The translations under genes and the position numbers were made by a program. Below are positions 3,764 through 40,150 of a DNA stretch of 46,807 nt, piece by piece (positions within the stretch are counted from its first letter, which is position 1; each line of letters opens with the position of its first letter). The notes below the pieces were generated by a model that saw only the letters and a program-made list of their open reading frames with translations, did not search any database and was not told the DNA's origin. This DNA comes from Planctomycetota bacterium (GTDB taxonomy: Bacteria; Planctomycetota; Planctomycetia; Pirellulales; Pirellulaceae): NCBI GenBank assembly GCA_026692845.1, contig JAPLNM010000116.1, positions 1 through 46,807 on the forward strand, written 5' to 3'.

Positions 3764-3777
3764 GCTTAACGCTTAAC
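3764..3777. repeat. 7-bp tandem duplication over the dsbD stop codon
   Basis: GCTTAAC occurs twice head to tail (3764-3770, 3771-3777). The stop codon of the minus-strand DsbD gene (3775-3773) is inside one copy, so each copy carries a TAA, in different frames. Confidence 0.85.
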
Positions 3778-6148
3778 GAGTTGCCGACAAGATATTTCCA
3801 AGTCCGCTATTTGCTGTGGCGGCCTTTGCCGTGCCTGCTTGCTCGAGCGCATTGATCACCTGCGACTCGGACAGAAGATCTTCGAGGACGATCGGATTCT
3901 TGCCGTCCCCAGGCTTGTAAATGGCAAGCACCGGAATGGCCACCTTCTTGAGCTCTCGAAGTTTGGCCATCAGGGCAGGTGGGTAGCGTGTCAGATCGGC
4001 GATCATCGGCACCACGTCATTCCTCTTGACCATCTCTTGGACCTTGCGTGTATGGATCGCCAATGCCAAATTCAATTTGCAGTTCTGACACCACTCGGCC
4101 GTAAAGTCGATCAACACCGGCTTGCCCTCGGCGACGGCGGCCTGCAACGCCTGTTCGCTGAACGGAACCCACTCGAGTTCGTACTTCGAGGGCTTGAGGA
4201 AATAAAACGACCCGAGAGTACCTACCAAGGCCGCCATGGTGCCCAATCCCCAGGCTCGCATACGACGTGAGTTGCTCTCCCAAACCGGCACGCGCCCAAT
4301 CATCCAACAGGCAAACCAAATGAAGATCAAGGCCGATAGCATGGGGATTCGTTCTTTCTCCGGGAATCCCGATACGAAAGCAACGACGCTCAAAAGCAAC
4401 GGAAAGGCTAGAAATTCCTTGAACGTCTCCATCCATGGTCCGGGCTTAGGAATCCACTTCATCGAACCCGGGAACATCGCGACCATCAAATAAGGAAACG
4501 CCATTCCGATTCCTACCCCTAGGAAAATCAAGAGGACGACCCAAGCAGGTTGGCTGAGTGAAACCGCAAGCGCACTTCCCAGGAACGGACCGCTGCAGGG
4601 GGTTGCAAGCAATGTCGTGATGACCCCTTTGAAGAACGCTCCGAGATACCCTTTTTTGCTCGAAAGCTCGGTGCTCTTCGCACCGGTGGCAAAGCCCGGG
4701 ATCGGAAACTCCCAGACCCCCAAGAAGCTCAACGCCAAAGTGAACATGAATCCCGTGAAGAGAACTTGGGTCGTCGTGTTCCCAAAAAGAGCGCCCCACT
4801 CCAAAGCTCGACCCGTCATCCAGCGGAGCCCTAGGCTCGTGGTCCCAAATCCCAGCAAGACTGCGATCATCCCAAGCGAGTAAATCAGCGTGAGCATCGA
4901 GGCGGTCCGACGCTCTCCATGGGCTTCGTTGACAAACCCCAAGATCTTTAAGCCGATAACCGGCAAGACACATGGCATAAAATTCAGAATGAATCCGCCG
5001 AGCATCGCCAAGAAAAACTTCGATAAAACTTCCTTGGGCTCAAGCGTCAAGGCATACTTGTCCCCCTCGAACCAATTGGCCCGCTGAGGATGGTTCGCCG
5101 CCTCGTCGTATTTGCTAGCCGCTATTCCCAGCGGAAGCTTATCCGATACAGGTTTCGTCTTGGATACCTGATAGACTCCCTTGAAGAGCAACCCCCGAGG
5201 TCGATCGCAGGCACCTTGGGTACATGCTTGGTAGCCGATCAATCCTTCCAACGGCGTTTCGCCTTCGATGGCCGTCTCGGGGACCTCGATCGGCACGCGG
5301 ATCGTGACCTTGCCATCGTAGTAATCGACGATACCACCGACCCCCAAGTCCTTTCGGATCGATCGCTTGTCGACTTTGGGCTCATAAGCCTTGACCCCAA
5401 ATTTTTGCGTCAGCACCAAATGCGTTCGGTTCTCGAGGACCGGATCCGTCAAATCGAGCTTGTAAATGTGGAAGTCCATGTCGGGCGTCGCTTCGAGAAT
5501 CAACTCGAGTTTCTCCCCAGGCTTGACCGACGACTTCGAAAGATGGATCTTCCACTCGACCATGCTGTCGCGCTCGCGAAACACACCCAGCGCAAGGGCC
5601 TCTTCTTTGGTTTCAACCCAACCTGCAAACTCCGCTGGGACCTTCTCGTCGCGAATCGGAATGCAATTCTTCTCGCACACCTGACCCTCGATTGTAAGTT
5701 CGAGCGGACCGGGCTTGCCCTCGGGAGATTCGGCCCATTGGATCGGAGCCGACCAAGTCACCGTGTTGCTAAACTGCTCGACAGCCAATCCGGGCCATGA
5801 TTCTGAGTCCCGGTCGACCTCCGGAGCCCGGTCGGGCACAAATGGCCCAGACAACTTGGCCTGCTTGCCCAAGAGCTTGATCACCGTAGGACTCGGACCC
5901 CCTGCGGCCTGGGTCGTCGAGAAAATGTGGTACTTGCCCGAAAGCTTGGCAGTCAGTGATACCTTCCCCTTGAGAGTCTTTGGGTTCACCTCGTAGGTCG
6001 CTGAAAACTCGTAAGGGTTGTCGAACAACCCCAAAGAGAAATCCTGCCCAAGCCCCCCGGCCGTTTGGCCAAAAAGCGGATCCTGTCCCATCGAAGCCAA
6101 TGGGATCAAAAGCCAAGCAAAAGCCGTCGTCAAAAGTACTCGAATCAT
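3773..6148 (-). CDS. dsbD: DsbD-type thiol:disulfide interchange protein
   Basis: An inner-membrane protein that moves reducing electrons from cytoplasmic thioredoxin to periplasmic thiols. I start it at the ATG near 6148 (MIRVLLTTAFAWLLIPLASMG, a signal peptide) rather than the upstream in-frame TTG at 6208, giving 791 residues. Two periplasmic beta domains follow, each with a cysteine pair: C-E-K-N-C at about 158-162 and C-T-Q-G-A-C at about 309-314. Next is an eight-helix membrane domain with the two signature cysteines, in 'FMPCVLP' (~393) and 'ATPCSGP' (~518). The C-terminus is a thioredoxin-like domain with 'EWCQNCK'. All electron-relay cysteines of DsbD are therefore present. The N-terminal region is longer than the single-domain E. 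coli form. A likely role is reduction of apocytochrome or copper-protein thiols, which fits the many heme proteins nearby. Confidence 0.93.
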   Translation of the reverse strand: MIRVLLTTAFAWLLIPLASMGQDPLFGQTAGGLGQDFSLGLFDNPYEFSATYEVNPKTLKGKVSLTAKLSGKYHIFSTTQAAGGPSPTVIKLLGKQAKLSGPFVPDRAPEVDRDSESWPGLAVEQFSNTVTWSAPIQWAESPEGKPGPLELTIEGQVCEKNCIPIRDEKVPAEFAGWVETKEEALALGVFRERDSMVEWKIHLSKSSVKPGEKLELILEATPDMDFHIYKLDLTDPVLENRTHLVLTQKFGVKAYEPKVDKRSIRKDLGVGGIVDYYDGKVTIRVPIEVPETAIEGETPLEGLIGYQACTQGACDRPRGLLFKGVYQVSKTKPVSDKLPLGIAASKYDEAANHPQRANWFEGDKYALTLEPKEVLSKFFLAMLGGFILNFMPCVLPVIGLKILGFVNEAHGERRTASMLTLIYSLGMIAVLLGFGTTSLGLRWMTGRALEWGALFGNTTTQVLFTGFMFTLALSFLGVWEFPIPGFATGAKSTELSSKKGYLGAFFKGVITTLLATPCSGPFLGSALAVSLSQPAWVVLLIFLGVGIGMAFPYLMVAMFPGSMKWIPKPGPWMETFKEFLAFPLLLSVVAFVSGFPEKERIPMLSALIFIWFACWMIGRVPVWESNSRRMRAWGLGTMAALVGTLGSFYFLKPSKYELEWVPFSEQALQAAVAEGKPVLIDFTAEWCQNCKLNLALAIHTRKVQEMVKRNDVVPMIADLTRYPPALMAKLRELKKVAIPVLAIYKPGDGKNPIVLEDLLSESQVINALEQAGTAKAATANSGLGNILSATR

Positions 6149-6570
6149 CGATCCCTCTTTGAAATGATAGGTAGTTTCATTGTAGGTTCCCAACAACTCG
6201 CGGGTCAACGGATACTTTAGATCCCCGGGTGTATCCTACCGGACCCGAAATTCTCCCTTGGCTTGGAACCTGACGGTCCCTTTGAGTTCTAACCGCGTAA
6301 TCGCCAGCATAATCCGCCGCAAAGTTACCTTTGGCTCTGAATAGAGGTCTTTCATGGAGGTTAAACATCTGCCGGAAAAACACACTCTAAGATAAGCGAT
6401 TTTACTTCGATCGGCTTGGTTTTGCTATCAAAACCGCCGATAAACAAATTCGAGCCAATAAAAACACCCATGTGGGCGATTTGGGCGAAATGCGAATTCT
6501 GGAGTTGATTCCGACCGGGCAAAAGCTTTATAAGTCCGCTTCGCAATTTAGGGAGGAAGGAATCTCACCG
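6149..6570. other. Divergent intergenic region dsbD / aminotransferase
   Basis: This 420-bp region separates divergent genes and must carry both promoters, but I see no box pair good enough to mark. A small hairpin GGTTTTG-CTAT-CAAAACC lies at 6418-6435. The sequence before 6571 carries GGGAGGAAGG, the ribosome-binding site of the aminotransferase. Confidence 0.5.
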
Positions 6571-7731: not shown

Positions 7732-7864
7732 ATCCGACCCGCAGCTTCACCAAAGACCATCAGACCTTATACAAGCCAAACCGCTTCGAAACGGGCTCTG
7801 ATCTGCTTGGCGAGACCCTTCTTAATGCGATTTTCAGCCCCTCTAGGGGGAACTTGTGAAAAAG

Positions 7865-7893
7865 TTGACCCCGCTAGCGACTTGAGCTATACT
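7865..7893 (+). promoter_or_regulatory. Sigma-70-type promoter for the cytochrome/DUF1549 unit
   Basis: TTGACC (7865-7870), a spacer of exactly 17 bp, and TATACT (7888-7893) form a near-consensus promoter about 120 bp upstream of the start at 8014. Transcription would begin near 7900, leaving a leader of just over 110 nt. The rest of 7732-7864 shows only a short CCCTCTAGGGGG palindrome that might end the preceding gene's transcript. Confidence 0.7.
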
Positions 7894-8013
7894 CAAGCGA
7901 CCGATAAAGACTCGTATTTCTACAGGATTTATAGGCCTTAACCCACCCACCCCCGAGCCCCCGCTTGCTCGACGAACCTTTCTCACAATCCAACCAGGTC
8001 CATCGGATCTTTT

Positions 8014-11000
8014 ATGCGCATACCAAAACACCTCTTCCTAGCCCTCTGGGCAGTTATGGGTCCCTCTATGGGTCCCTCTATGGGGCCCTCAAGCCTCCTG
8101 GCACCGAAGACCCAGGCCGCGGATCCTCCCCCGGTCTCTTGGTCCAAAGATGTCCTGCCGATCCTGCGCGCCAACTGCTATGCCTGCCACCAAGCCTCCA
8201 AAACCCAAGGTGGCTTTCGAATGACCGATTTCGAAGGCTTGCTCAAAGGGGGTGAGTCCGGCGATGCGGCCATCGTTCCGGGGAACGCCGAAGCGAGCAA
8301 CCTGCTGCGCGAAATCACTCCGGTTGACGGCAAGGCCGAGATGCCCAAGAACCTTGCCCCGCTAAAACCCACCGAAATCGAAATCATCCGAAAATGGATC
8401 GCCGCCGGGGCCGTCCAAGACGTCGTCGATACCGGCCCACGCTTCACCAACGAAAAACCACCGGTCTACTCCCGAGCGCCAGCGATCGTCAGCCTGGACT
8501 TCTCTCCCGATGGCTCGCAACTTGCCCTCAACGGATTCCACGAAGTCCTTGTGCTCGGAACCCAAGACTGGCAACTCAAGCACCGATTGATCGGTGCTAG
8601 CCCCCGCATCGAATCGGTTCGATTCTCTCCGGACAACCAATGGCTCGCCGTGGCCGCCGGAGAACCTGGCGTTTCGGGAGAACTCCAACTTTGGAACAAT
8701 GCGAACAAGCAACTGCACCGAAGCACGTTGCTCGGTGGCGATACCCTCTTTGGTCTGTCCTGGACGCACGATTCGTCCATGCTCGCGCTGGGAATGGCCG
8801 ACAACTCGATCCGTGCGTTGGACCTCGAAGGCAACCAAAAACTCTACCAACGGACCCACGATGATTGGCCACGCTCGACGGTCTTTACCGTCGATGGCAA
8901 ACACTTGCTCTCAGGCGCTCGCGACATGACGGTCAAACTCACCGATGTCGAAACCGAACGGTTCATCGATAACGTCACATCGATCACCCCCGGTGCACTT
9001 CGCGGCGGGGTCCAAGCCCTTGCGCGTCACCCCGAACGCGACGAGATCCTCGTTGGTGGCTCGGATGGCACCCCAAAAATCTATCGCGTTTTCCGACAGA
9101 CGGCTCGCGTCATCGGTGATGATGCCAACCTGATCCGACAACTCGATCCCATGCCAGGCCGCATCTTCTCGGTGGCTGTCAGCCCCGATGGCAAATACCT
9201 CGCGGCTGCCTCAACGATCGATAACCAAAGCGTCATCAAAGTTTGGTCCTACGATGTCGATGGCAAAGTACCGCCGGAAATCAAAGCCATCCAAGCCATA
9301 CGGGCGCCTCAGCGAAAACCCGAAGATCGCAAAAAACTCGAAGTCTACATCACCGAACAACCCCAAGTCCTGGGAACCTACCAAGTCCCCAACGCTGCCG
9401 TCTATGCCCTGGCCATCGACACCCAAGGTCGCATCGCGAGCGGTGCGTCCGATGGGCACGTACGCGTTTGGAATATCGCCGACTCCCAACTCATCGCCGA
9501 TCTGGATGCGACCCCTGCCGGTTCGCTCAACGCCGCCCAAGACAGCTCGCTTGCGACGCTCCGCTCCGATCGACTCAAAGCCATCGGCGAGGCACACCTA
9601 GCCGAACGCACCCCCCAAGCTCCCAAAGCCGAAGCGGAGCTTGTCCACCCGCCGGTCCAAGTCGATCAAATCGCTTCGATCCAAGTCCAACCGCCACAAA
9701 TCGATTTCGGGGCCTGGAATGACTCGGCGCAGATCGTCGTCATGGCCCAACTCCAATCCGGCGAACTGGTCGATGTGACCAGCCAAGCGACCTTCTCGGC
9801 CGAAAACGATTCGGTTTGGTTGTCGCAACGCGGTTGGGTTCAACCCATTCATGCAGGCGATGCCAAGATCAACGTGGCGCTGGGCAACCATCAGCAAGCC
9901 ATTGCCGTCCATTCGACGATCCCATCGACCTTCGATGTCGACTTTATTCGCGACGTCAATCCCGCCCTGTCTCGCCTAGGTTGCAACTCCGGGACCTGCC
10001 ACGGTGCCCAAGCCGGTAAGAACGGCTTCAAGCTCTCGCTGCGAGGCTATGATCCGAACTACGATGTTCGAAGTTTGAGCGATGACCTCGCCGGCAGACG
10101 CATCCATCCGGCCTCTCCGATCGATTCGCTGATGTTGACCAAACCCCTGGGAGTTGTCCCCCACGTCGGCGGAAAAATCATCGAGCCAGGCGACAACCAC
10201 GCCCTGGTCCTTCGTCAGTGGATCGCCGGTGGCGCGACCCTGAATATGGGCGCCCCGAGAGTGACTGCCATCCAAGTCACCCCGACCAACCCGGTCATCC
10301 CTATGCCCGGCGGTATCCAACAACTTCGTGTCGTGGCGACTTATGCCGATGGCAAGTCGCGCGATGTGACCCGCGAAGCCTTCCTCGAATCGGGGAATGC
10401 AGAAGTCGGTGCGGTTCTCGAAGGAGCCCGCGTCCAAGCCCTCCGACGCGGAGAAGTCCCCGTCCTGGCCCGCTTCGAAGGTGCCTATGCGGCCACCACA
10501 CTGACGGTCATGGGGAATCGCGAAGGCTACCAACAGGCACAAATCGCTTCGCAAAACATCATCGATCGACTCGTCGCTTCCAAATGGGATCGACTCAAAA
10601 TCCAACCCTCAGGACTGTGCAACGATGCGGATTTCCTGCGCCGTGTGACGCTCGACCTAACGGGCGTTCCACCGACCCCAGAAGCCGTCCGCGCTTTTCT
10701 GGCCGATACGACCGAAAGCCACCTCAAACGCGATCGGATCGTCGATCAGCTCGTCGGCAGCGATGGGTTCGTCGACCACTGGACCAACAAATGGTCCGAC
10801 CTGCTCCAAGTCAACTCGAAGTTCCTGGGCAAAGAAGGCGCATCGAAATTCAAAGACTGGATCCGCAACAGCTTTGCTACCAACAAACCCTACAACCAAT
10901 TCGCTTACGAAATCCTCACCGCCTCGGGCTCCAATCGCGAGAACCCCGCGGCTTCTTATTACAAGATCCTGCGAACCCCCGAAGAAGCCGTCGAGAACTC

Positions 11001-13173
11001 TACCCACCTGTTCCTGGCCGTTCGCTTCAACTGCAACAAATGCCACGACCACCCCTTCGAACGCTGGACCCAAGACCAATACTACGAGACCGCAGCCTAC
11101 TTTGCCCAAGTCGGCTTGAAGAAAGATGAAGCCTCCGGGAACAACACCATCGGCGGTACGGCCGTCGAAGGTGCAAAACCCCTTTGGGAAGAAGTCTTCG
11201 ACAAAAAAGACGGCGAAGTCAAACACCAAAAGACACAACAACCCATTACGCCGAAGTTCCCGTTTGTGGCCAACAATGCCCCAGGCGAAAACCCCTCGCG
11301 ACGTACCCAGTTTGCTGCCTGGGTCACCAGCAACGAGAATCCCTATTTTGCCAAGAGCTTCGTCAACCGCATGTGGGGATACATGCTAGGCAAAGGACTC
11401 ATCGAACCGATCGATGATATCCGCGCTGGGAACCCTCCGAGCATCCCCGAACTGCTGGCCCACTTGGAAAAAGATTTCATCGAACACAATTACGACATCC
11501 GACATGTCGTGCGCTCGATCTGCAAGTCCGATGTCTACCAGCTCTCGATCGAGACCAACAAGTACAACGCCGACGACGACCGGAACTACTCGCACGCATT
11601 GCCCCGACGATTGCCCGCCGAAGTCCTCTTCGATGCGATCTACCAAGTCACCGGCGCGGTCTCGAAGATCCCTGGTCTGCCCCCTGGAACCCGCGCAGCT
11701 GCCCTGGCCGATGCCGATGCAGGACTGCCCGATGGGTTCCTCAATAACCTAGGCCGACCGGCTCGCGAAAGCGCCTGCGAATGCGAACGCTCCAACGAAC
11801 TCAGACTCGGTTCGGTCATGGCACTCGTCAGCGGTCCGACCCTCGGCGGCGCAATCGCAGACCCCGAAAACGCCATCCGCAAACTCGTCGATTCGACTCC
11901 CGATGATGCCGCCTTGATCGATGAAGTCTTCGTGCGGGTCTTGAACCGACACGCCACAGCCGAAGAGATCCAAGCTGCGTTGTCGACGATCACCTTGATC
12001 CAAAAAGATCACGAGCGCATCGTCACCCAATTGTCCGAACGCGAAGCTTGGTGGGTCGATGAAAAACCCAAACGCCAATCAGCCCTCGATGCCGAACGCG
12101 AATCGACCAAGATGGCTCTGGAAGCTCGCAAAGAACAGATCCGACCCGAGCGCCAAGCCGCCGACAACGCGCGTTTGGAAAGACTCGCAGCAGCTCAAGC
12201 GACCGTCCAAGGCTACGAAGCGACGCTCGATACCAAACTCCAAGAGTTCATCGACGCACGACGCAACGGCGCGACCTGGGAAACCCTCGCGGCTAGCAAA
12301 GCCGAAGCGACCACCGGTGCGAGCCTGGCCCCCCAATCCGATCGCTCCATCCGAGCCTCCGGCGGTGCCAACAAGGGACTCTACACCATCGATACCGTCG
12401 CGACCCAAGGCGCCATTACCGCCGTGCGCCTAGAAGCCCTCACGGCCGCCGACCTGCCCTCCCAAGGTCCTGGACTGCCCCCGAACGGGAACTTCGTCGT
12501 CACCGAAATCGAACTCTTCGCAGGAGCTGCGGATAAACCCGCCGAAATGCGAAAAATCAAGCTAGTCAAAGGACTCACCGACTTCGATCAGCCCTCTTTC
12601 TCGGCCGCTGCGGCCATCGACGGTAAGAACAACGACCAAGGGGGTTGGGCGATCTCCACGGCCACCGGCGTCGAACACTGGGCGGTGTTTGCCCTCGAAG
12701 CCCCGTTGACACTCCAAAATGGTGAGGTCCTCCAATGGCGGATCTACCAAAACCACGACGCACCCGAACACCGATTGGGCCGATTCCGCCTTAGCGCAGG
12801 ACAACACCAAGGCGAACTCGCTCTGGGGCTGCCCGAATCGTTCCGCGCCCTTAGTGCCGTCCCCAAGGCCGCTTGGACACCCGAACTGACCAAAGAGGGA
12901 ATGAACTACCTGAAACTCTCCTCAACGGATCTCAAAGCCCTACAAGCCAACGTCCAGAAGGAAAGCCAAGCGCTCCCTGAAGACGAACCTTCGCTCGTAC
13001 TAGCCAAACGAATCGAACGTTTGGGAACTCCGTTGCCCGAAGATTCCAGATTGATCCGTTTGCGAGCCGACGTCAAAGAGAGCGAAGGGCAATTGGGCAA
13101 CGCCCGATTGACCTCGGCTCAGGATCTTGTTTGGGCCCTGATCAATAGCCCAGCGTTCCTGTTCAACCACTAA
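8014..13173 (+). CDS. Multiheme planctomycete cytochrome / WD40 / DUF1549 / DUF1553 protein
   Basis: A secreted protein of 1719 residues. After a signal peptide (to about 36) comes a planctomycete cytochrome-c domain with CYACH at 55-59, then a WD40-type beta-propeller (about 150-510). Two Ig-like Big_2-type domains (about 550-640 and 750-837) flank a second cytochrome-like domain with a CX4CH motif, C657-NSGT-C662-H663. DUF1549 starts near 847 and contains 'NCNKCHDHPFE' (Cys1007, Cys1010, His1011). DUF1553 starts near 1085. A helical Glu/Arg-rich segment and a beta-rich insert (about 1330-1640) precede the terminal 'LVWALINSPAFLFNH', the usual DUF1553 ending. The family is abundant in planctomycetes and mostly uncharacterised; a role in surface redox chemistry or polymer degradation is inference. 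It is followed by a DUF1501 gene, its standard partner. Confidence 0.95.
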   Translation: MRIPKHLFLALWAVMGPSMGPSMGPSSLLAPKTQAADPPPVSWSKDVLPILRANCYACHQASKTQGGFRMTDFEGLLKGGESGDAAIVPGNAEASNLLREITPVDGKAEMPKNLAPLKPTEIEIIRKWIAAGAVQDVVDTGPRFTNEKPPVYSRAPAIVSLDFSPDGSQLALNGFHEVLVLGTQDWQLKHRLIGASPRIESVRFSPDNQWLAVAAGEPGVSGELQLWNNANKQLHRSTLLGGDTLFGLSWTHDSSMLALGMADNSIRALDLEGNQKLYQRTHDDWPRSTVFTVDGKHLLSGARDMTVKLTDVETERFIDNVTSITPGALRGGVQALARHPERDEILVGGSDGTPKIYRVFRQTARVIGDDANLIRQLDPMPGRIFSVAVSPDGKYLAAASTIDNQSVIKVWSYDVDGKVPPEIKAIQAIRAPQRKPEDRKKLEVYITEQPQVLGTYQVPNAAVYALAIDTQGRIASGASDGHVRVWNIADSQLIADLDATPAGSLNAAQDSSLATLRSDRLKAIGEAHLAERTPQAPKAEAELVHPPVQVDQIASIQVQPPQIDFGAWNDSAQIVVMAQLQSGELVDVTSQATFSAENDSVWLSQRGWVQPIHAGDAKINVALGNHQQAIAVHSTIPSTFDVDFIRDVNPALSRLGCNSGTCHGAQAGKNGFKLSLRGYDPNYDVRSLSDDLAGRRIHPASPIDSLMLTKPLGVVPHVGGKIIEPGDNHALVLRQWIAGGATLNMGAPRVTAIQVTPTNPVIPMPGGIQQLRVVATYADGKSRDVTREAFLESGNAEVGAVLEGARVQALRRGEVPVLARFEGAYAATTLTVMGNREGYQQAQIASQNIIDRLVASKWDRLKIQPSGLCNDADFLRRVTLDLTGVPPTPEAVRAFLADTTESHLKRDRIVDQLVGSDGFVDHWTNKWSDLLQVNSKFLGKEGASKFKDWIRNSFATNKPYNQFAYEILTASGSNRENPAASYYKILRTPEEAVENSTHLFLAVRFNCNKCHDHPFERWTQDQYYETAAYFAQVGLKKDEASGNNTIGGTAVEGAKPLWEEVFDKKDGEVKHQKTQQPITPKFPFVANNAPGENPSRRTQFAAWVTSNENPYFAKSFVNRMWGYMLGKGLIEPIDDIRAGNPPSIPELLAHLEKDFIEHNYDIRHVVRSICKSDVYQLSIETNKYNADDDRNYSHALPRRLPAEVLFDAIYQVTGAVSKIPGLPPGTRAAALADADAGLPDGFLNNLGRPARESACECERSNELRLGSVMALVSGPTLGGAIADPENAIRKLVDSTPDDAALIDEVFVRVLNRHATAEEIQAALSTITLIQKDHERIVTQLSEREAWWVDEKPKRQSALDAERESTKMALEARKEQIRPERQAADNARLERLAAAQATVQGYEATLDTKLQEFIDARRNGATWETLAASKAEATTGASLAPQSDRSIRASGGANKGLYTIDTVATQGAITAVRLEALTAADLPSQGPGLPPNGNFVVTEIELFAGAADKPAEMRKIKLVKGLTDFDQPSFSAAAAIDGKNNDQGGWAISTATGVEHWAVFALEAPLTLQNGEVLQWRIYQNHDAPEHRLGRFRLSAGQHQGELALGLPESFRALSAVPKAAWTPELTKEGMNYLKLSSTDLKALQANVQKESQALPEDEPSLVLAKRIERLGTPLPEDSRLIRLRADVKESEGQLGNARLTSAQDLVWALINSPAFLFNH
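8056..8090. repeat. 12-bp tandem repeat in the signal peptide region
   Basis: ATGGGTCCCTCT at 8056-8067 and 8068-8079, with a third diverged copy to 8090, encodes Met-Gly-Pro-Ser three times near the end of the signal peptide. Each unit begins with an in-frame ATG. Confidence 0.9.
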
Positions 13174-13194
13174 ACCATTCCGTAAACCATTCCG
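13171..13194. repeat. 12-bp perfect tandem duplication starting at a stop codon
   Basis: TAAACCATTCCG occurs twice back to back (13171-13182, 13183-13194). The first TAA is the stop of the 1719-residue gene, and the second TAA is in the same frame, giving a backup stop. Confidence 0.95.
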
Positions 13195-13233: not shown

Positions 13234-14700
13234 ATGTTGCGATTGCTCGGTTCATCAGGTAAGGATTTGTGCGATTCGAGCCTGGGATTCACACGCCGCG
13301 ACGTGCTTCGCGTCGGCGGCTCCGGACTCTTTGGGCTCTCGCTTGCCAACCTCCTGAAACTCCAGTCGCTCCATGCGGCTCCCTCGGAAGGTTCGCCAGG
13401 TTGGAACAAAGCCAAGCGGATGATCCTCGTGTACCTCCAAGGTGGTCCGTCCCACTTGGACCTCTGGGACCCAAAAGAAAATGCTCCCGATAAGGTCAAG
13501 AGCGTCTTCAAGCCGATCCCGACGAAAATCCCAGGAACCTTCTACACCGAGAACTTGCCCAAGCTCAGTTTGGTCAACGACAAGTTCACCATGATCCGCT
13601 CGATGAGCTACACGCCCAACGGGCTGTTCAATCACACCGCGGCGATCTACCAAATGATGACCGGCTATACGACCGATAAAGTCAGCGCCTCGGGCCAGTT
13701 GGAACCCCCAAGCCCCAAAGACTTCCCTAACTTTGGATCCAACATCATCCGGCTCAGACCAGCCGACGAACCGATGCTCCCGTTCGTCATGCTCCCACGA
13801 CCCTTGCAAGAATCCAACGTCGTAGGCAAAGGGGGAACCGCAGGCTTTCTGGGCAAAGAATACGATCCGTACACGCTGTTCCCAGAAGGGGACGACATGG
13901 ACATGGCCAAAATGGATCGGATCAACGTCAGCGATCTGCAACTGCGCCCCGAAGTCTTCTCGGTTCGCTTGCAACGCCGTGCCGCTCTGCGAGATCTGAT
14001 CAACAAGCAAATGCCAACGATCAACGCCGCAGTCGAAAACCAACAACTCGACGAGTACTTCTCCCAAGCCCTCTCGCTGGTCGTCTCGGGCAAAGCCCGC
14101 GAAGCGTTCGACCTGAGCCAAGAGTCCGAAGTGCTCAAGGATGCCTACGGACGAAATACCTTCGGCCAAAGCTGCTTGCTAGCACGCCGATTGATCGAAG
14201 CCGGTACGCGGGTCGTCGAAGTCGTCTGGCCCAAGGTCGCCAACAGCGATAACCACTCCTGGGACCATCACGTCGATCTGTCCAAACGCATGAAAAACCA
14301 ATCCGGACCGATGCTCGACGCCGGTCTTTCGACCCTGATCGAAGACCTCGATCAACGCGGACTGCTCGAAGACACCCTGCTGGTCGCCGTCGGCGAATTC
14401 GGACGCTCTCCGGAACGTGGCGTGAGCACCAGCGGAAACGGAAATAGCGACGACGGTCGGGATCACTGGCCGTACTGCTATACCTCGGTCATCGCCGGGG
14501 CCGGGATCAAACGCGGATACGTCCACGGCAAGAGCGACAAAACGGCCAGCGCGCCGATCGAGTCCCCGGTCCACCCCGCACAACTCCTGGCGACCATCTA
14601 CCACGCCTTCGGAATCGAACCCGAAACGATCGTCTACAACCACCTGAATCAACCGCGCGAGCTGGTCAAGGCCCAAGCGGTTACCGAACTGTTTTCCTAG
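13234..14700 (+). CDS. DUF1501 protein, Tat-exported
   Basis: A 488-residue DUF1501 protein. The N-terminus carries a twin-arginine motif, '[12 protein letters not shown]' (arginines near 21-22), followed by a hydrophobic stretch, indicating Tat export after folding. The core has the family's '[17 protein letters not shown]' segment and '[11 protein letters not shown]' followed by 'GRDHWPYC'. These recall the metal-binding alkaline-phosphatase/sulfatase fold. DUF1501 genes nearly always follow DUF1549/DUF1553 genes in planctomycetes, as here with a 60-bp gap, so the two products are probably functional partners at the cell surface. Substrate and activity are unproven. The gene probably shares the promoter at 7865. 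Its stop lies inside a 20-bp tandem duplication. Confidence 0.93.
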
Positions 14701-14727
14701 TCAGCACACTGTTTTCCTAGTGAGCAC
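14688..14727. repeat. 20-bp tandem duplication over the DUF1501 stop codon
   Basis: Units 14688-14707 and 14708-14727 differ at one position (TCAGCAC versus TGAGCAC). Each contains TTTTCCTAG; the first TAG is the stop codon, and the second lies in another frame. Confidence 0.95.
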
Positions 14728-14770
14728 CTAGGATCGAACCCTCGCACTCTGGATAGATTTGGAAGTGATC

Positions 14771-17359: not shown

Positions 17360-17375
17360 GCTTGCCCCAAAAGTA
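17342..17375. repeat. 17-bp perfect tandem duplication over a stop codon
   Basis: AGCTTGCCCCAAAAGTA occurs at 17342-17358 and 17359-17375 without mismatch. The stop TAA (17357-17359) is made at the junction of the two copies. Without the duplication the stop would have been TAG. Confidence 0.97.
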
Positions 17376-17822: not shown

Positions 17823-18049
17823 GCAAGCCCCCTTTTAGGGAGTCTCCGTGGGAGACTAAAAGACCTGCTGCGATTTTTCAACCGAAGAGCATCCTCGAAG
17901 AAAGCGATAGCGGATTGCGAATAATCGCCGAATTGCAATAAAACAATCTCGGCTTATTTCGCACAGGCCAACAAATCATCGTAGCATCCCCAGGGCAAAA
18001 GACAACCCGCCGATCGCCTCTGCGATCACGCATACCCCCCAGCAGCCCC

Positions 18050-18500
18050 GGATCTCTGCGCGAGATCCACTACCCTTTGCGTCTTTGCACCCTTTGCATC
18101 TTTGCGTTTATTTCTTCCCAGCAGCCCAGCAGCCGGATCTCTGCGCGAGATCCACTACCCCTTGCGTCTTTGCACCCTTTGCATCTTTGCGTTTATTTCT
18201 TCCCAGCAGCCCAGCAGCCGGATCTCTGCGCGAGATCCACTACCCTTTGCGTCTTTGCACCCTTTGCACCTTTGCGTTTATTTCTTCCCAGCAGCCCAGC
18301 AGCCAAGCAGCCAAGCAGCCCAGCAGCCGGATCTCTGCGCGAGATCCACTACCCTTTGCGTCTTTGCACCCTTGTACCTTTGCGTTTATTTCTTCGCAGC
18401 AGCCAAGCAGCCCAGCAGCCAAGCAGCCGGATCTCTGCGCGAGATCCACTACCCTTTGCGTCTTTGCACCCTTGCATCTTTGCGTTTATTTCTGCCTAGC
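18050..18500. repeat. Five-copy 85-109 bp tandem repeat array
   Basis: Units begin with the palindrome GGATCTC-TGCGC-GAGATCC at about 18050, 18135, 18220, 18329 and 18429, giving periods of 85, 85, 109 and 100 bp. Each continues with CCTTTGCGTCTTTGCACC and TTTGCGTTTATTTCT, then a variable run of AGCAGCC/AAGCAGCC heptads. Length differences come from heptad number. The last unit runs into the glycerate kinase stop codon. Reading frames cross the array in all three frames because 85 is not a multiple of three, so it is not coding. The stretch 17823-18049 upstream holds no gene that I can see. Confidence 0.95.
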
Positions 18501-19990: not shown

Positions 19991-20024
19991 AGCCGAAACT
20001 GACGACTAGCCGAAACTACAGTGG
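19991..20024. repeat. Tandem duplication at the DUF1080 gene stop codon
   Basis: AGCCGAAACT occurs at 19991-20000 and 20008-20017 (period 17), with the remaining bases diverged. The stop codon of the minus-strand DUF1080 gene (20018-20016) overlaps the second copy. Confidence 0.75.
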
Positions 20025-26613: not shown

Positions 26614-26616
26614 GAA

Positions 26617-28966: not shown

Positions 28967-30985
28967 TTAGATCCGTTTGAACATTTTATCGAGCTGTTCT
29001 TTAGAGAAGAAAAGAGCCGTAGGGCGACCATGTGGGCAGTACTGTGTGTCGTGATAAAGATGTCGCTGCTCGAGCAATGCCGATATCTCTGGATCGCTTA
29101 AGCGATCCCCGGCCTTGATCGCTGCCTTGCACGCCATCATGTTCATCATCTCATCGAGGACATCCTGCGCGTTGACTTTTTTGCCGCCGGACATCAAGGC
29201 TTCGAGCACCGTCCTGAGCATCTCTTCGGGGGCACGCTTCGAGAGTATCGATGGGTAGGCGCTGAGCAGGACGGTATCGCCACCGAACGACTCGATTTCA
29301 AAGCCGATCTCGGCGAGCATCGCCTTCGACTCGATCGCCATGGCTGCCTCCGACGAGGTCAACTGGACCGTCGCAGGCATGAGCATCCGTTGACGATCCA
29401 ACGACCTTGAGAGCACCTTGGTCTTGATTTGCTCGAATAAGATCCGCTCGTGCAATGCGTGCTGATCGATGATCACCATCCCGGCTTCGTCTTGGGTGAC
29501 CAAGTACCGGTTGTGGATCTGGAAACCGATCGCTGGGGTCGATCCGAACCACTCGTGCGATCCGTCGGACCGGTTCGAAAGGCCAACCGAGGGGCCTTCG
29601 AATGGCATGCTCGATGCAGATCCCTCGGGCACTCGATCCGCCAACGACGATGAGGGAACTTGGGAGTCGCTCAGAGGGATCGCCGATGCGCTACCCGGCA
29701 ATGAAACTCCAGGCAATGACCCGCCCGGCAATGGATTCCCACTGCGGTAGGCCCCACCCGTGGGAAAGCCTGCCGTGGGAAAACCTGCAGGGGAAAAGCC
29801 TGCGGTTGAAAGGCCAGCATTGGGGAATGGCTGAAAGCTCGGCACGTTTTGCTGGGACCGAGCCCAATCCATCAAAGACGTATTGGATTCGAGTTCGACG
29901 GTTCGATTCCCAATGGCTTGACTCCCAATGGCTTGACCCTGCGTCGGGCTCCCTGCTGAATTCGGATCCCCTGCGTTGGGGGCTTTGGCAACCAGGTTCG
30001 AGGTGAGGAATCGGTGACGGATGGTATGGAGCAATCGGCTGTAAATCGCTCCGCTGTCTTCAAAGCGAACTTCGACCTTCGTCGGATGCACATTGACGTC
30101 GACCGTTTTCGGATCGATCTGCATCTGCAAAAAACAGATCGGCAAACGACCGACCATCAACAACCCTCGGTAGGCTTCCGAAAGCGCATGCTGCAAGGCT
30201 CGATCGCGGATGTAGCGACCGTTGAGGAACAGATACTGCATGCGGTTGTTGCTGCGCGAGACGCTCGGATCGGCGACATAGCCGCGTACCTTGACCTTCT
30301 CATCTTCATGCTCGACGCAGATCAAAGCGTCGGCGATCTCATCTCCAAAAAAAGCGCGGATCCGTTCCGACCATCGATTCGTCGGAGGCAAATCGTACTG
30401 GACCCGTTCGTTGCTGCTCAATATCATGTGCACGCTGGGAAAGGCCAAGGCGATCCGCGTGAAGGCTTCTACCACATGGCCCATTTCCGTCGAAGGTGTC
30501 TTCATGAATTTGCGACGGACCGGCGTGTTGAAAAACAGATGCCGCACTTCGATCGTCGTGCCGACATTCATCGCACAAGGCTTAATCGCCTCGCGATCCG
30601 ATCCTTGGGCCCGCAGTTCATAGCCGCTGTCGCTCGATGCAACCCGGCTTCGAAGCGTCATGTGGCTGATCTCGGCAATCGAGGCCAAAGCCTCGCCGCG
30701 GAATCCAAGCGTCCGCACGTCGAAAAGATCCTCCGAGTCGGCAAGCTTACTCGTCGCGTGCGGTGCTAAGGCCAACTCCAACTGCTCGGGCTCGATGCCG
30801 CACCCATTGTCGCTGATTCGCAGCAGCTCAAGGCCTCCGCCCGAGACCATCACCTCGATCAAATTCGAGCCGGCATCGATGCTGTTTTCCAACATCTCTT
30901 TGACCACGCTCGCAGGCCGCTCGATCACCTCGCCTGCTGCGATCTTGTTGACCAGACTTACCGGCAATTGACGTATGATTGGCAT
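28967..30985 (-). CDS. mutL: DNA mismatch repair protein MutL
   Basis: A 672-residue MutL. The N-terminal GHKL ATPase has 'NKIAAGEVIERPASVVKEMLENSIDAG', 'DNGCGI' and 'TLGFRGEALASI' (read in part). The C-terminal domain carries 'DQHALHERILFE', matching the DQHA(X)2E(X)4E metal-binding endonuclease motif, with 'ACKAAIKAGD' and 'CPHGRPTALFF'. It is therefore the nicking type found in bacteria lacking MutH. The linker between the halves (about 350-470) is long and made of tandem Ala-Gly-Phe and Leu-Pro-Gly units. The start ATG at 30985 has only a weak upstream site (GGGAG about 16 bases away). A good promoter lies at 31054-31081. No mutS is nearby. Confidence 0.96.
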   Translation of the reverse strand: MPIIRQLPVSLVNKIAAGEVIERPASVVKEMLENSIDAGSNLIEVMVSGGGLELLRISDNGCGIEPEQLELALAPHATSKLADSEDLFDVRTLGFRGEALASIAEISHMTLRSRVASSDSGYELRAQGSDREAIKPCAMNVGTTIEVRHLFFNTPVRRKFMKTPSTEMGHVVEAFTRIALAFPSVHMILSSNERVQYDLPPTNRWSERIRAFFGDEIADALICVEHEDEKVKVRGYVADPSVSRSNNRMQYLFLNGRYIRDRALQHALSEAYRGLLMVGRLPICFLQMQIDPKTVDVNVHPTKVEVRFEDSGAIYSRLLHTIRHRFLTSNLVAKAPNAGDPNSAGSPTQGQAIGSQAIGNRTVELESNTSLMDWARSQQNVPSFQPFPNAGLSTAGFSPAGFPTAGFPTGGAYRSGNPLPGGSLPGVSLPGSASAIPLSDSQVPSSSLADRVPEGSASSMPFEGPSVGLSNRSDGSHEWFGSTPAIGFQIHNRYLVTQDEAGMVIIDQHALHERILFEQIKTKVLSRSLDRQRMLMPATVQLTSSEAAMAIESKAMLAEIGFEIESFGGDTVLLSAYPSILSKRAPEEMLRTVLEALMSGGKKVNAQDVLDEMMNMMACKAAIKAGDRLSDPEISALLEQRHLYHDTQYCPHGRPTALFFSKEQLDKMFKRI
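29760..29834. repeat. 15-bp tandem repeat in the MutL linker, about 5 copies
   Basis: Units related to GTGGGAAAGCCTGCC start at 29760, 29775, 29790, 29805 and 29820, with increasing divergence. On the minus strand they encode Ala-Gly-Phe-X-X repeats. A separate 15-bp pair, TCCCAATGGCTTGAC, lies at 29907-29921 and 29922-29936 in the same linker. Confidence 0.9.
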
Positions 30986-35006: not shown

Positions 35007-35032
35007 CGCATTCTTTGTAGTTGGAACACTGC

Positions 35033-36807: not shown

Positions 36808-37925
36808 GCCAAACGTCCAGACCGATCAAGGTATGCCTGATCATCCCGACGCTCGACCAAGGGGGTGCGGAGAAACAACTCGCCATGCTTGCTTGCGGAT
36901 TGGATCGCCGATGCTTTGAAACCTCGGTCGTGGTGCTGACCCGAAGCGGACCTCTCGAAGAACAACTTCGAGCCGCCGGTGTGGATGTCCATCTGGTCGG
37001 CAAACATGCCACGGCCGATCCATGGGCCTGGATGAAACTCCTGCGAATCCTAAAGCAGATTAAACCCGACATCGTCCACACCTGGATCTTTGCCGCCAAT
37101 GCTTATGGCCGCTCGGCGGCTCGGTGGGCCAAGGTGCCTGTGGTCGTCGGCTCGGAACGTTCCGTCGACCCCTGGAAAGGGACTTGGCAACTGACCATCG
37201 ATCGGTACCTCGCCAAACGTACCCAGGGGATCTCCACGAATAGTCCAGGGGTCGTCGATTTCTATCACAGCCATCGCATCGATCGATCGAACTTTACCCT
37301 CATCCCGAACGGAATCCCTCCCCGGGATCCAAAGCTTGAAATCTCCCGCGAAGAAGCCTTCGCACGCTTGGGAATCCCGCTCGATCGACGCCTGATCCTC
37401 TCGATCGGACGCTTATGGCAACAAAAAGGGTACAAAGATCTGATTTGGTCGGCCGAGATGCTCCGGGTCCTCCGGCACAACGTCAGCTACGCCGTCTTGG
37501 GCGATGGACCCGAACGCGTCCGCTTGGAGGAATACCGGGATAATGTGCGAGCCGCCGGGTCCGTCGAACTCCTCGGCCATCGCTCCGATGCGATGCAGAT
37601 TCTCCCCCATGCGGATCTGCTCTGGAACGGCAGCCTCTACGAAGGCCAATCGAATGTCATCCTCGAAGCCATGCAAGCCGCAGTGCCTGTCATCGCAACG
37701 GATATCCCAGGAAACCGCGACCTTATCGAAAACGAAAAAACCGGTATCCTGTTCCAAGTCGGCGATGTCGATCGATTGATGCGGGTCTCGAATCAATTGC
37801 TCGATGATACCGACCGACGAAACAATATCATTCAAGCCGCACGCGAACTTGTGTCGCGCGAGCACTCGGCCACAACGATGATCCAACGCCATGAAGACTG
37901 GTACCGCAAGTTATTGCAACGATGA
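36804..37925 (+). CDS. Glycosyltransferase family 4
   Basis: A 373-residue GT-B enzyme transferring a sugar from a nucleotide donor to an acceptor on the inner face of the membrane. I choose GTG 36804, which overlaps the preceding stop as GTGA and follows AAAGAGG at a good distance. Residue 1 is then followed by 'SQTSRPIKVCLIIPTLDQGGAEKQL', the classical GT4 start; an upstream ATG at 36666 would overlap the preceding gene by 140 bp. The donor-binding half has 'LILSIGRLWQQKGYKDLI' and the E-x7-E region 'YEGQSNVILEAMQAAVPVIATDIPGNRDLI'. Its stop overlaps the next start by 4 bp. The donor and acceptor are unknown. Confidence 0.92.
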   Translation: MSQTSRPIKVCLIIPTLDQGGAEKQLAMLACGLDRRCFETSVVVLTRSGPLEEQLRAAGVDVHLVGKHATADPWAWMKLLRILKQIKPDIVHTWIFAANAYGRSAARWAKVPVVVGSERSVDPWKGTWQLTIDRYLAKRTQGISTNSPGVVDFYHSHRIDRSNFTLIPNGIPPRDPKLEISREEAFARLGIPLDRRLILSIGRLWQQKGYKDLIWSAEMLRVLRHNVSYAVLGDGPERVRLEEYRDNVRAAGSVELLGHRSDAMQILPHADLLWNGSLYEGQSNVILEAMQAAVPVIATDIPGNRDLIENEKTGILFQVGDVDRLMRVSNQLLDDTDRRNNIIQAARELVSREHSATTMIQRHEDWYRKLLQR

Positions 37926-39109
37926 AAAATCCCTCTAGCTTTGAATTCGTTCAACTCCGCTGCGCCATCGCTCCAGGCTCGGTGGATATCCCCCAAGCCG
38001 TCGAGCAAGCCCTAGGAAATCCCATCGAATTTCCCTCGGTCGACCTGGCGTTGGTCCCAGGGGATCGCGTCGCGATCGCGGTGCACGAAAGTTTGCCTCA
38101 ACCCGAGCCTGTCGTCATGGCTATCATCGACTGGCTACTGAGCAAACATCCTACAAGCGATCTGGCGATCCGCGTCGTGCTAGCACCCGGAAACGAACCG
38201 CTCGCCCAAAGACTCAACGATTGGATAGCTACCCGGTGTCCTCAATCCGAATCGACCTCCGAATCGACCCCCGAACCAACTCATCGGGTGATGTGCCACG
38301 ATCCAGAGGATCAGCAAAACCTTGAGTACATTGCCGCTACCATGCAATCCGAAGGAATCTACCTGCACCGCGAGCTGGTCGACGCCGATTTCGTGATCCC
38401 CGTCTACCGTTGGCTCGAAACCAAAGACCCGAGAGGGCATGATCCCTACGTCGTGCTACCGGCCTTCGGGGATCGCGCCACCCAAGCCCGCTACGCCAAG
38501 AACTGGCTCAAGCAACAAGACCCCGCACCCCCAACTTCCAAAAAAGCCTCCGAGTCCGGTTGGCTAGCAGGTATCCAATACGCCATCGCCGCTGTGGCCA
38601 ACCAAGAAGGACGCATCGCAATGCTCGTCGGCGGTGCTCCCGAATCGGTCGATCAAGCATGCGCCAACGCGGTCCACTTTGGCTCCAGTCCAAAGGAAGC
38701 GACCAGCCAACAAGGCTTCGAACTGGTCGTCGTCCAACTGGTCGATCCGTCAAGCGTCCCGAGTTGGTCGCAAGTCGCCAGCGCCGCTTGGAGCGCCCAG
38801 CGTTGGCTAAGCCCAGCCGGTCGCATCGTCGTCGTCGCGTCGAATCTGACCGAGGTAAGTCCAGGGATCGGTGCACTAGCCTCCGACGAACCCGACGAGG
38901 AACTTCTACAATTGCTCCTTACAAGCTCCCTGCAGGATGCCAATGCCGCGGCGGTCCTGCGTGATATCCAGTCGCGCCGAAGTGTCTATGTGCAGTCCCA
39001 AGTCGACCCAGAACTCCTCGAGTCGCTCGGGTTCGCATCGATCCGAGACCCAAGCGAACTCGAACGCTTGATGCAAAAATCCAAGCGTGTCGGTGTCATG
39101 GAATACTGA
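37922..39109 (+). CDS. LarA-like (DUF2088) protein, degenerate
   Basis: A 395-residue cytoplasmic protein whose first half resembles the N-terminal domain of nickel-pincer lactate racemase LarA: 'DRVAIAVHESLPQPEPVVMAIIDWLL', 'HDPEDQQNLEYI' and 'GIYLHRELVDADFVIPVYRW' follow its order of strands. The catalytic elements look absent. The usual Gly-x-His-Arg segment reads 'VVLAPGNEPLAQRL', and the Gly-Gly-x-Lys plus following His region is replaced by 'LETKDPRGHDPYVV'. I therefore infer a non-canonical activity or a structural role. The start at 37922 overlaps the glycosyltransferase stop by 4 bp. A short 12-bp tandem repeat encodes Ser-Glu-Ser-Thr. The family assignment is moderate; the loss of the active site is read from motif comparison only. 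Confidence 0.7.
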   Translation: MKNPSSFEFVQLRCAIAPGSVDIPQAVEQALGNPIEFPSVDLALVPGDRVAIAVHESLPQPEPVVMAIIDWLLSKHPTSDLAIRVVLAPGNEPLAQRLNDWIATRCPQSESTSESTPEPTHRVMCHDPEDQQNLEYIAATMQSEGIYLHRELVDADFVIPVYRWLETKDPRGHDPYVVLPAFGDRATQARYAKNWLKQQDPAPPTSKKASESGWLAGIQYAIAAVANQEGRIAMLVGGAPESVDQACANAVHFGSSPKEATSQQGFELVVVQLVDPSSVPSWSQVASAAWSAQRWLSPAGRIVVVASNLTEVSPGIGALASDEPDEELLQLLLTSSLQDANAAAVLRDIQSRRSVYVQSQVDPELLESLGFASIRDPSELERLMQKSKRVGVMEY

Positions 39110-39124
39110 TCGTACGCACGGTCT

Positions 39125-39155
39125 GCTAATCAGTTTGCTAATCGGTTTGCTAATC
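39125..39155. repeat. 12-bp tandem repeat after the LarA-like gene
   Basis: GCTAATCAGTTT, GCTAATCGGTTT and GCTAATC follow each other at 39125-39136, 39137-39148 and 39149-39155, starting 15 bp after the stop codon. They fill much of the short gap to the next gene. Confidence 0.9.
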
Positions 39156-39180
39156 AATAGAATTCGCAAGGTAATTCATC

Positions 39181-40089
39181 ATGGATATCGACCTGGATAT
39201 CGACGGGCTGAATCGCAAGTACGGGCTCGAAAATGACCTCGTCTTTGATCTTCACCCAAACGGTTTGGTGAGGGCCAACGTGCAAACCAACCAATGCGCC
39301 GGGGAGTTTTTCTTGCAAGGCGCCCACGTGACACGCTACCAACCCGCTAGCCAGACCCATCCGGTTTTATTCATGAGCCAGCAAGCTCTCTACATACCCG
39401 GCAAGGCGCTTCGGGGGGGGATCCCCATCTGTTTTCCGTGGTTCAATAGCCACCCGAGCGACCCTAGTCTGCCTGCCCACGGCTGGGCGCGAACCTCGGT
39501 CTGGAATTTGGTGCAAACCCAAAAGGTCGACGGGCAAATCGAGGTGGCCCTAGGGCTTGCCAAAGACGGTTTCGATTTGATCTATCGAATCTCCATGGGC
39601 GAGACGCTCAAGGTCGCCTTGGAGGTTCGAAATGCAGCAGATGTGCCTTTGGACTACGAGATCGCCCTGCACACGTACCTTAGCCTCGGAAGCATCGAGA
39701 ACGTTTCGATCGCTGGTGATTTGGAGAATTGCGAGCATTATGACCAATTGACCCAAAAGCTTCATGAGCCGGAAAAACAGAGGATTCGTTTTGTCCAAGA
39801 AACCGATCGGATCTATTATGGTCAAGCCTCACGAATCGTACTTGATGATCCCGCTTGGCAGCGTTCGATCCAGATCGACTCGTTGGGATCCCAAGCCACG
39901 GTGGTATGGAATCCGTGGATCGATAAATCCAAACGCATGGCCGATTTCGGGGATCTTGAGTATCTGCAGATGTGCTGTATCGAGACGGCGAACGTTCGCC
40001 AAAAGTCCGTTCGCCTAGCACCCGGTCAAACCCATACGACGACCGCAGAATTCCAAGTCCAAAATACGGTAACCACCAATATACGGTAA
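39181..40089 (+). CDS. Hexose-6-phosphate 1-epimerase-like mutarotase (YeaD family)
   Basis: A 302-residue cytoplasmic protein of the aldose-1-epimerase fold. It has 'GAHVTRYQPASQTHPVLFMS', 'ALRGGIPICFPWF' (the family's phosphate-sugar binding segment), the catalytic-type His in 'LPAHGWARTS', and the late Glu in 'CCIETANVRQKSV'. This set matches D-hexose-6-phosphate mutarotases of the YeaD group, which speed alpha/beta exchange of glucose-6-phosphate. The start ATG at 39181 follows AAGGTAATTC. It lies 71 bp after the LarA-like gene, across a tandem repeat, and may be the last gene of that run. Its stop codon sits in a diverged 17-bp tandem duplication and a hairpin. Confidence 0.9.
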   Translation: MDIDLDIDGLNRKYGLENDLVFDLHPNGLVRANVQTNQCAGEFFLQGAHVTRYQPASQTHPVLFMSQQALYIPGKALRGGIPICFPWFNSHPSDPSLPAHGWARTSVWNLVQTQKVDGQIEVALGLAKDGFDLIYRISMGETLKVALEVRNAADVPLDYEIALHTYLSLGSIENVSIAGDLENCEHYDQLTQKLHEPEKQRIRFVQETDRIYYGQASRIVLDDPAWQRSIQIDSLGSQATVVWNPWIDKSKRMADFGDLEYLQMCCIETANVRQKSVRLAPGQTHTTTAEFQVQNTVTTNIR

Positions 40090-40150
40090 CCACGGACCAC
40101 ACGGAAAAAAAGAAGGCTTTCATTCCGTGTGTTCCGTGTGTTCCGTGGTT
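40064..40150. repeat. Tandem duplication and hairpin at a gene end
   Basis: ATACGGTAACCAC occurs at 40064-40076 and 40081-40093 (period 17); the second contains the mutarotase stop codon. From the stop, AACCACGGA (40088-40096) pairs with TCCGTGGTT (40142-40150), and CACACGGA pairs with either of two tandem TTCCGTGTG copies (40123-40131, 40132-40140). It could act as a transcript end structure. The rest of 40151-40344 shows no gene and should carry the promoter of the metal-efflux operon, although no clear boxes stand out. Confidence 0.75.

Follow-up and report, generated by a model that had tools for sequence, protein, structure and literature searches.

Short tandem duplications past gene ends in a duplication-rich planctomycete genome

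Do stop codons attract short tandem duplications, do genes need such copies at their ends, or are the copies least harmful there? The question was raised by a stretch of 46,807 nucleotides (the window, i.e., the whole stretch of DNA that was analyzed) on a contig that is part of a 5.24-Mb Pirellulaceae-like planctomycete MAG in 182 contigs. A preliminary description of the window had listed head-to-tail duplications at the stops of at least seven genes and had offered slippage promoted by termination or replication conflict, or selection for backup stops, as causes. A literature search on duplications at bacterial stop codons found nothing on the subject.

Results

Repeats in the window. All eight repeat stretches listed previously were confirmed by direct reading of the letters, and TRF at a score of 30 recovered six of the seven arrays assigned to stops as well as the one at 39125, leaving 19991-20024 unreported. 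With 20 order-1 Markov shuffles of the window as the chance baseline, exact 7-bp tandem pairs at lag 7 numbered 3 versus a mean of 3.4 in the shuffles, runs of at least 10 at lags of 7 to 25 numbered 28 versus a mean of 1.5 (maximum 4), and runs of at least 12 at lags of 12 to 25 numbered 14 versus 0.05 (maximum 1), which places the longer repeats beyond chance. The repeats are as follows.

13171-13194, plus strand: 12-bp exact tandem duplication starting on the TAA of gene 8014-13173 (C-terminus FLFNH)
14688-14727, plus strand: 20-bp tandem duplication with 1 mismatch, covering the last 4 codons, the TAG, and downstream bases of the DUF1501 gene 13234-14700
17342-17375, plus strand: 17-bp exact tandem duplication spanning the stop of gene 14759-17359, which has a cytochrome c domain
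40059-40097, plus strand: 17-bp tandem duplication spanning the stop of gene 39181-40089 (aldose-epimerase-like)
39124-39155, plus strand: 12-bp × 2.7 tandem array past gene 37922-39109, in its 3′ flank
24114-24176, minus strand: 15-bp × 4.2 in-frame (5-codon) array in the C-terminal coding part of the MMPL gene 24109-26613 (minus)
3764-3777, minus strand: 7-bp tandem pair at the stop of the DsbD-like gene 3773-6208 (minus), chance level
19991-20024, minus strand: 10-bp match at lag 17 at the stop of gene 20016-21305 (minus), chance level
29908-29937, unstranded: exact 15-bp tandem duplication within a gene, its period a multiple of three
38246-38269, unstranded: exact 12-bp tandem duplication within gene 37922-39109, its period a multiple of three, G017 alignment gapped

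Every stretch read as had been described, and the duplications at 13171, 14688, 17342, and 40064 do overlap stops, but the tally of at least seven stops was only partly upheld: the pair at 3764-3777 is at the chance level given the shuffle counts for 7-bp pairs, the lone 10-bp run at 19991 may be explained by chance, and 24119-24176 lies off the stop. The last array leaves the stop of its gene outside and also takes in the start region of the gene that follows. The array at 39125-39155, which had been placed just after a stop, is indeed in the 3′ flank of gene 37922-39109.

At 17342-17375, the stop codon is formed by TA from the first copy and A from the second, and with one copy only, that codon would be TAG in the same frame; homologues of this gene end 3 to 6 residues beyond the aligned part, and the last residues vary. 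At 40059-40097, the stop in use sits in the second, frame-shifted copy (offset 1.65 units). The last ~7 residues of that gene are unlike those of G017, the nearest relative found (~83 to 88% identical in DNA), whose alignment does not cross the array. For genes 8014-13173 and 13234-14700, the stop has the same position in four relatives (G001, G002, G009, and G020), and none of the four carries the tandem pair at either stop; the G001 alignment spans the 14688-14727 region and is missing the second copy.

Abundance across the genome and the reading-frame filter. The genome sample consisted of the window and 60 further stretches (61 loci, 999,839 bp), chosen by contig number and non-random, with genes called by our own codon-pair model, without a published caller. 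Tandem duplications with a period of 7 to 30 were counted as strict, and TRF arrays with a score of at least 40 formed a looser set. Strict duplications numbered 186, or 18.6 per 100 kb, compared with 18 in 505,513 bp (3.6 per 100 kb) and 3 in 260,000 bp (1.2 per 100 kb) in the two best-sampled genomes of the same genus, G002 and G006, and with 1 in 200,000 bp (0.5 per 100 kb) in E. coli K-12. The density is thus 5-fold that of G002 and 15-fold that of G006; three genomes with small samples (G021, G028, and G032) had 25, 25, and 15 per 100 kb, respectively. Markov DNA built from 20 of the 61 loci (369,976 bp) contained 0 strict duplications.

The preliminary description had overlooked this wealth of duplications, which extends into genes, where the period is a multiple of three in 83 of 84 cases. 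The same holds for 35 of 51 periods in a more broadly defined "far" intergenic class, so part of that class is probably missed coding sequence. The units are mostly 9 to 21 bp and differ in sequence from array to array, as had been claimed along with their varied lengths, which excludes a single mobile repeat. The typical array has two copies and is shorter than 50 nt, and mismatches between copies are common. Among 73 exact two-copy duplications, 30 match for at least 3 bp beyond one unit, versus ~3.7 expected without homology, and 43 match for 0 to 2 bp. Extra junction matches could also post-date the first duplication. The best reading is that the duplications are widespread across the genome, perhaps guided in part by microhomology, and filtered by purifying selection.

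Distribution around gene ends. Strict arrays overlapped 15 of 596 stops versus 4 of 597 starts in the 999,839 bp (Fisher p = 0.011), and 13 versus 2 of 570 each with the window excluded (p = 0.007). The corresponding counts for TRF arrays with a score of at least 40 were 26 of 596 versus 12 of 597 (p = 0.021) and, with the window excluded, 22 versus 9 of 570 each (p = 0.027). The excess at gene ends is genuine, but it is spread over ~60 bp, and the majority of stops are array-free.

With the window excluded, the intergenic density per 100 kb reached 136 in the 60 bp next to stops, compared with 55 close to starts and 29 in mid-gap. These zone counts are small, with uncorrected p values, and leave out predicted-gene gaps under 20 or over 600 bp and genes truncated by a stretch end: 19 duplications in 13,996 bp near stops versus 10 in 18,069 bp near starts (p = 0.023) and versus 9 in 30,837 bp of mid-gap (p = 1e-4). 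The suggested excess near stops was therefore borne out, and an equal density throughout intergenic DNA, which would have spoken against it, was not what we found. Lowering the gene-caller threshold kept the zone order (123, 55, and 37 per 100 kb for stop, start, and mid-gap, window included). By gap orientation, the densities were 112 (convergent), 58 (codirectional), and 44 (divergent) per 100 kb. The lean toward the stop side in codirectional gaps, window excluded, was nonsignificant (strict, 14 of 20, p = 0.12; TRF, 17 of 32, p = 0.86), as was the stop-versus-start difference for TRF arrays by zone (p = 0.19).

Comparison with relatives. Seven arrays were compared with G017. Three are clean insertions here, of 12, 45, and 13 bp, one of them covering a stop (L094 6872-6898); a fourth, at 39124, is missing in G017 (gapped alignment), and the stop at 39109 is in the same place in G017 and G001; none of the remaining three gave a decisive alignment. 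The duplications are thus derived at a few loci. When this genome's duplications were sought in the G002 stretches, one was found. Of 25 insertions of at least 6 nt relative to G017, 2 were scored as tandem, apart from a 45-bp triple that the scoring overlooked; in the opposite direction, 0 of 12 were.

Relative to G017, substitutions were most frequent in the stop zone (0.236), followed by the start zone (0.211), mid-gap (0.159), and coding sequence (0.153), and insertion events per kb followed the same order (42, 14, 5, and 1.1), the mid-gap values resting on 6 gaps. This divergence of the 3′ flanks points to weak constraint there. The zone order was not reproduced against G001, where substitutions were 0.259, 0.375, and 0.321 for the stop, start, and mid-gap zones (3, 3, and 1 gaps, respectively).

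Discussion

We infer that duplications gather past gene ends because a copied stretch is least harmful there, rather than because stops attract or need them, and we consider this combination of short tandem duplication with purifying selection to be probable. Short segments, mostly of 9 to 21 bp, would be copied head to tail through slippage during replication or some comparable local error, perhaps aided in part by a few bases of pre-existing homology, and purifying selection would set which copies survive. Inside genes, nearly all survivors are multiples of three, and around starts copies are fewer; the first ~60 bp past the stop would offer the best tolerance, since the first copy of a stop-spanning unit would keep the ancestral C-terminus and stop, while the second would fall in the 3′ flank. 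A smaller number of copies, with lengths not divisible by three, shift the frame of the last codons and themselves provide the stop. Consistently, the first copy retains the stop in 19 of the 26 stop-overlapping TRF arrays, and in 6 of the remaining 7, the period is not divisible by three. Plain tolerance predicts a mid-gap as rich as the 3′ flanks, so this account holds only if mid-gap DNA is under constraint or in part codes for unannotated genes.

A mutational hotspot, in which slippage just past stops is promoted by transcription termination or by conflict between replication and transcription, would account for a 3′ flank density 4.7-fold over mid-gap and 2.5-fold over starts, an excess beyond simple tolerance if mid-gap is unconstrained. 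The same zone order, although weaker (85, 62, and 42 TRF arrays per 100 kb for stop, start, and mid-gap), was found in 15 other pooled genomes (1,452,798 bp, leaving out 6 genomes with a single 20-kb stretch each and 6 named loci). However, the density is a plateau from 0 to 60 bp without a maximum at the stop codon or immediately behind it, and relative to G017 this zone is enriched in substitutions and other indels as well; we regard such a hotspot, one of the two causes first offered, as unlikely.

It is highly improbable that the repeats are functional 3′ elements, such as terminators or protein- or RNA-binding sites. Their location in flanks would suit such a role, and the available text on Beggiatoaceae (PMC4679880) describes a precedent, i.e., short direct TAACTGA repeats between genes, 13 sets of which overlap the stop of the upstream gene. 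That system has one shared heptamer lying mainly upstream of starts, whereas here the units are unrelated, differ in length, and lie mainly past stops; a single conserved repeat word was not found. The duplications are also missing in relatives at the loci that allowed a comparison, and repeats of the same type are abundant inside genes.

Still less credible is selection for backup stop codons as the force retaining stop-repeating duplications. A second in-frame stop does follow within 30 nt at 13 of 26 duplicated stops, compared with 160 of 570 remaining stops (p = 0.025), and the two alternative frames are both closed at 9 of 26 versus 68 of 570. However, random stop-containing duplications simulated without selection gave 55% and 22%, respectively, which the observed counts match (p = 0.69 and 0.15), although the simulated units hold the whole stop, and 7 of the 26 observed arrays have it in a later unit. 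The surplus is therefore a by-product of copying a stop; many unit periods are, moreover, not divisible by three. An assembly or chance artefact, for which the fragmented MAG and 2 of the 7 listed pairs at chance level might speak, is comparably implausible, being at odds with the reading-frame filter, the mismatches in many copies, and the empty Markov DNA.

This kind of repeat is already known from the tandem repeats of Borg archaeal elements. As described in the available text of PMC9879509, individual Borg genomes are rich in head-to-tail repeats, each array with a unit of its own, a genome-specific richness that may be mirrored here; also in common are lengths divisible by three in open reading frames, partial repeats often flanking, and a recent origin not shared with relatives. 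The Borg arrays studied there are perfect, enriched in A, and at least 50 nt long, and they sit in large extrachromosomal elements that code on one strand, whereas those here have mostly two to four copies, are often mismatched, and belong to a bacterial MAG; long perfect arrays in a giant linear element were not what this contig presented. The repeats likewise resemble bacterial minisatellites, or variable tandem repeats arising by replication slippage, which are named in the available text of PMC9879509 and PMC6749651; in common are head-to-tail units of 7 to 30 bp, in multiples of three in genes and of any length between them. Head-to-tail units beyond chance and frame-keeping coding arrays are both present here, but most arrays are two-copy, resembling first duplications.

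Tentatively, the 5- to 15-fold density over two genomes of the same genus may reflect a lineage with a raised chromosome-wide rate of 9- to 21-bp tandem duplication, i.e., a state of replication or repair that favors duplication, comparable to the one in Borg elements, of which the 3′ flanks would be the natural record. We hold this to be less likely than not.

Candidate causes were also considered and rejected. Fill-in by NHEJ does not fit, as a search for Ku (PF02735) gave 0 hits among 25 genomes from the genus, including this one, and 6 of 40 genomes overall carried it. Nor does loss of the PolA 5′-nuclease domain (PF02739, present in 40 of 40 genomes) or loss of RecJ, which was found in 38 of 40, including this one, the two misses being 77% and 83% complete.

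Tolerance past the stop, as the probable cause of the bias, would make a conspicuous local pattern into a general proposition that can be tested. The ends of genes would preserve short duplications that are purged elsewhere, so that 3′ flanks may be used to read a genome's duplication rate, and a 5-fold or larger difference within one genus offers a comparison for finding what controls the duplication rate in bacteria.

Tandem duplications in the window

The preliminary description reported short tandem duplications at the stops of at least seven genes. All eight stretches that it listed carry duplications in the window sequence, and the tandem repeat caller TRF recovered seven of them, the exception being 19991-20024. 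In a comparison with 20 Markov-shuffled versions of the window, runs of at least 12 bp at lags of 12-25 were beyond chance (14 in the window versus 0.05), and 7-bp tandem pairs were within it (3 versus 3.4). We therefore discarded 3764-3777 as a stop duplication, together with 19991-20024, a lone 10-bp run at chance level. Four of the seven proposed sites do overlap stops, and one lies inside a gene:

13171-13194, tandem duplication overlapping a stop
14688-14727, tandem duplication overlapping a stop
17342-17375, tandem duplication overlapping a stop
40064-40097, tandem duplication overlapping a stop
24119-24176, 5-codon repeat in coding sequence

The window holds other repeats as well. An array at 18038-18493, with a period of 85-100 bp, a GGATCTC...GAGATCC palindrome and the words CTTTGCGTCTTTGC and CCCAGCAG, lies between two genes whose ends are at 17822 and 18496. 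Close to gene ends (~40083-40155 and 3646-3736) are dispersed repeats, words such as TTCCGTGTGTTCCGTG that have dozens of matches in the comparison genomes G017 and G002.

Enrichment near stops

Our sample of the source genome (5,237,937 bases, 182 contigs, completeness 96.2%) comprised the window and 60 stretches, 999,839 bp in all. A strict caller accepted lags of 7-30 with at most 1 mismatch, provided that the run reached 11 and covered one unit or more. In gaps of 20-600 bp outside the window, duplications were denser within 60 bp of a stop (19 in 13,996 bp, 136 per 100 kb) than within 60 bp of a start (10 in 18,069 bp, 55 per 100 kb; p = 0.023) or in mid-gap (9 in 30,837 bp, 29 per 100 kb; p = 1e-4), which upholds the proposed association with stops. 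The TRF densities (score at least 40) were 179, 122, and 52 per 100 kb, respectively, with stops exceeding mid-gap (p = 1.2e-4) but not significantly exceeding starts (p = 0.19). Arrays overlapped 13/570 stops and 2/570 starts outside the window (p = 0.007). Density past the stop formed a plateau, with 127, 136, 155, and 0 per 100 kb at 0-20, 20-40, 40-60, and 60-80 bp. Counting against a stop bias, arrays in codirectional gaps showed no significant lean to the stop (14/20 strict cases, p = 0.12; 17/32 TRF cases, p = 0.86). Fifteen other genomes, pooled, gave the same order by TRF, more weakly (85, 62, and 42 per 100 kb).

Near-stop DNA was also the most freely changing zone relative to G017, the closest relative found (shared DNA 83-88% identical). 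For the stop (11 gaps), start (14 gaps), and mid-gap (6 gaps) zones, substitutions stood at 0.236, 0.211, and 0.159 and insertion events at 42, 14, and 5 per kb, respectively; the values for coding DNA were 0.153 and 1.1. This zone order was not reproduced against another relative, G001 (3 stop, 3 start, and 1 mid gaps). Part of the mid-gap DNA may be unannotated coding sequence, because 35/51 periods in a wider far-intergenic class were multiples of three.

Reading frames and stop codons

Inside genes (midpoint at least 30 bp within a predicted gene), 83/84 periods were divisible by three (78/79 without the window; 50/51 in the first 670 kb of the sample). The rule therefore reflects selection on reading frames and is not something that assembly errors could produce. 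Sampled stretches L045, L049, L084, L058, and L095 carry long arrays in or near genes, with 15-, 21-, and 30-bp units and up to ~11 copies; those in frame encode short peptide repeats.

Genes 8014-13173 and 13234-14700 have the same stop position in G001, G002, G009, and G020, and none of these four relatives has a tandem pair at that position. Copy 1 thus preserves the ancestral terminus, and copy 2 falls in the 3′ flank. The stop used fell in the first unit in 19/26 stop-overlapping TRF arrays, and 6 of the other 7 had a period not divisible by three. The gene ending at 40089, for instance, takes its stop from a shifted second copy, and its last ~7 residues are unlike those in G017. Among seven arrays compared with G017, three were clean insertions in the source genome (12, 45, and 13 bp, the 12-bp one over a stop), three were undecided, and array 39124 was missing in G017.

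The suggested backup stops were indeed in surplus, an extra in-frame stop following 13/26 duplicated and 160/570 other stops. Selection for them is not needed, since simulated random duplications containing a stop gave an extra in-frame stop in 55% and stops in both other frames in 22%, compared with the observed 50% (p = 0.69) and 35% (p = 0.15).

Abundance and origin of the duplications

In the sampled source genome the strict caller found 186 cases, a density of 18.6 per 100 kb; 15 of them lie in the window and 171 elsewhere. In the best-sampled same-genus pair, G002 had 18 in 505,513 bp (3.6 per 100 kb; p ~1e-16 against the source genome) and G006 had 3 in 260,000 bp (1.2 per 100 kb); E. 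coli K-12 had 1 in 200,000 bp. Small samples gave 0-8.8 per 100 kb in ten genomes of the genus (G001, G009, G010, G015, G016, G017, G019, G022, G023, and G024) and 0-3.3 at order level, apart from G028 (10 in 40 kb, 25 per 100 kb) and G032 (6 in 40 kb, 15 per 100 kb); G021, of the genus, reached 25 (5 in 20 kb). The source genome is therefore rich in duplications, but not alone. Among stretches L152-L181, those of G028 (L176, L177), G032 (L178, L179), and G021 (L180) equaled the window's genome in richness, in small samples. One window protein had relatives, in named records, in planctomycete MAGs, Rubripirellula, Stieleria, Roseiconus, and Rhodopirellula. The segment 40213-46333 is ~90% identical to G002 (JAIYDN010000073.1), versus a ~75% average for other DNA shared with sampled G002, and possibly stems from a recent exchange; a heptamer tandem repeat (46331-46348) abuts the segment on its right side.

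Our search of open-licence papers found no report of short tandem duplications clustering at bacterial stops. Borg tandem repeats resemble those of the source genome in their frame rule, in arrays starting in ORF ends, and possibly in genome specificity (PMC9879509); TAACTGA repeats (PMC4679880) and prokaryotic satellites (PMC6749651) are other related kinds.

Ku was found in 0/25 genomes of the genus; the PolA 5′-nuclease domain and RecJ are both present in the source genome. Among 73 exact two-copy duplications with a period of at least 12, the match extended at least 3 bases past one unit in 30, versus ~3.7 expected without homology, and 0-2 bases in 43. Microhomology-guided slippage is thus compatible with a good part of the duplications; the others may arise by a process independent of homology.
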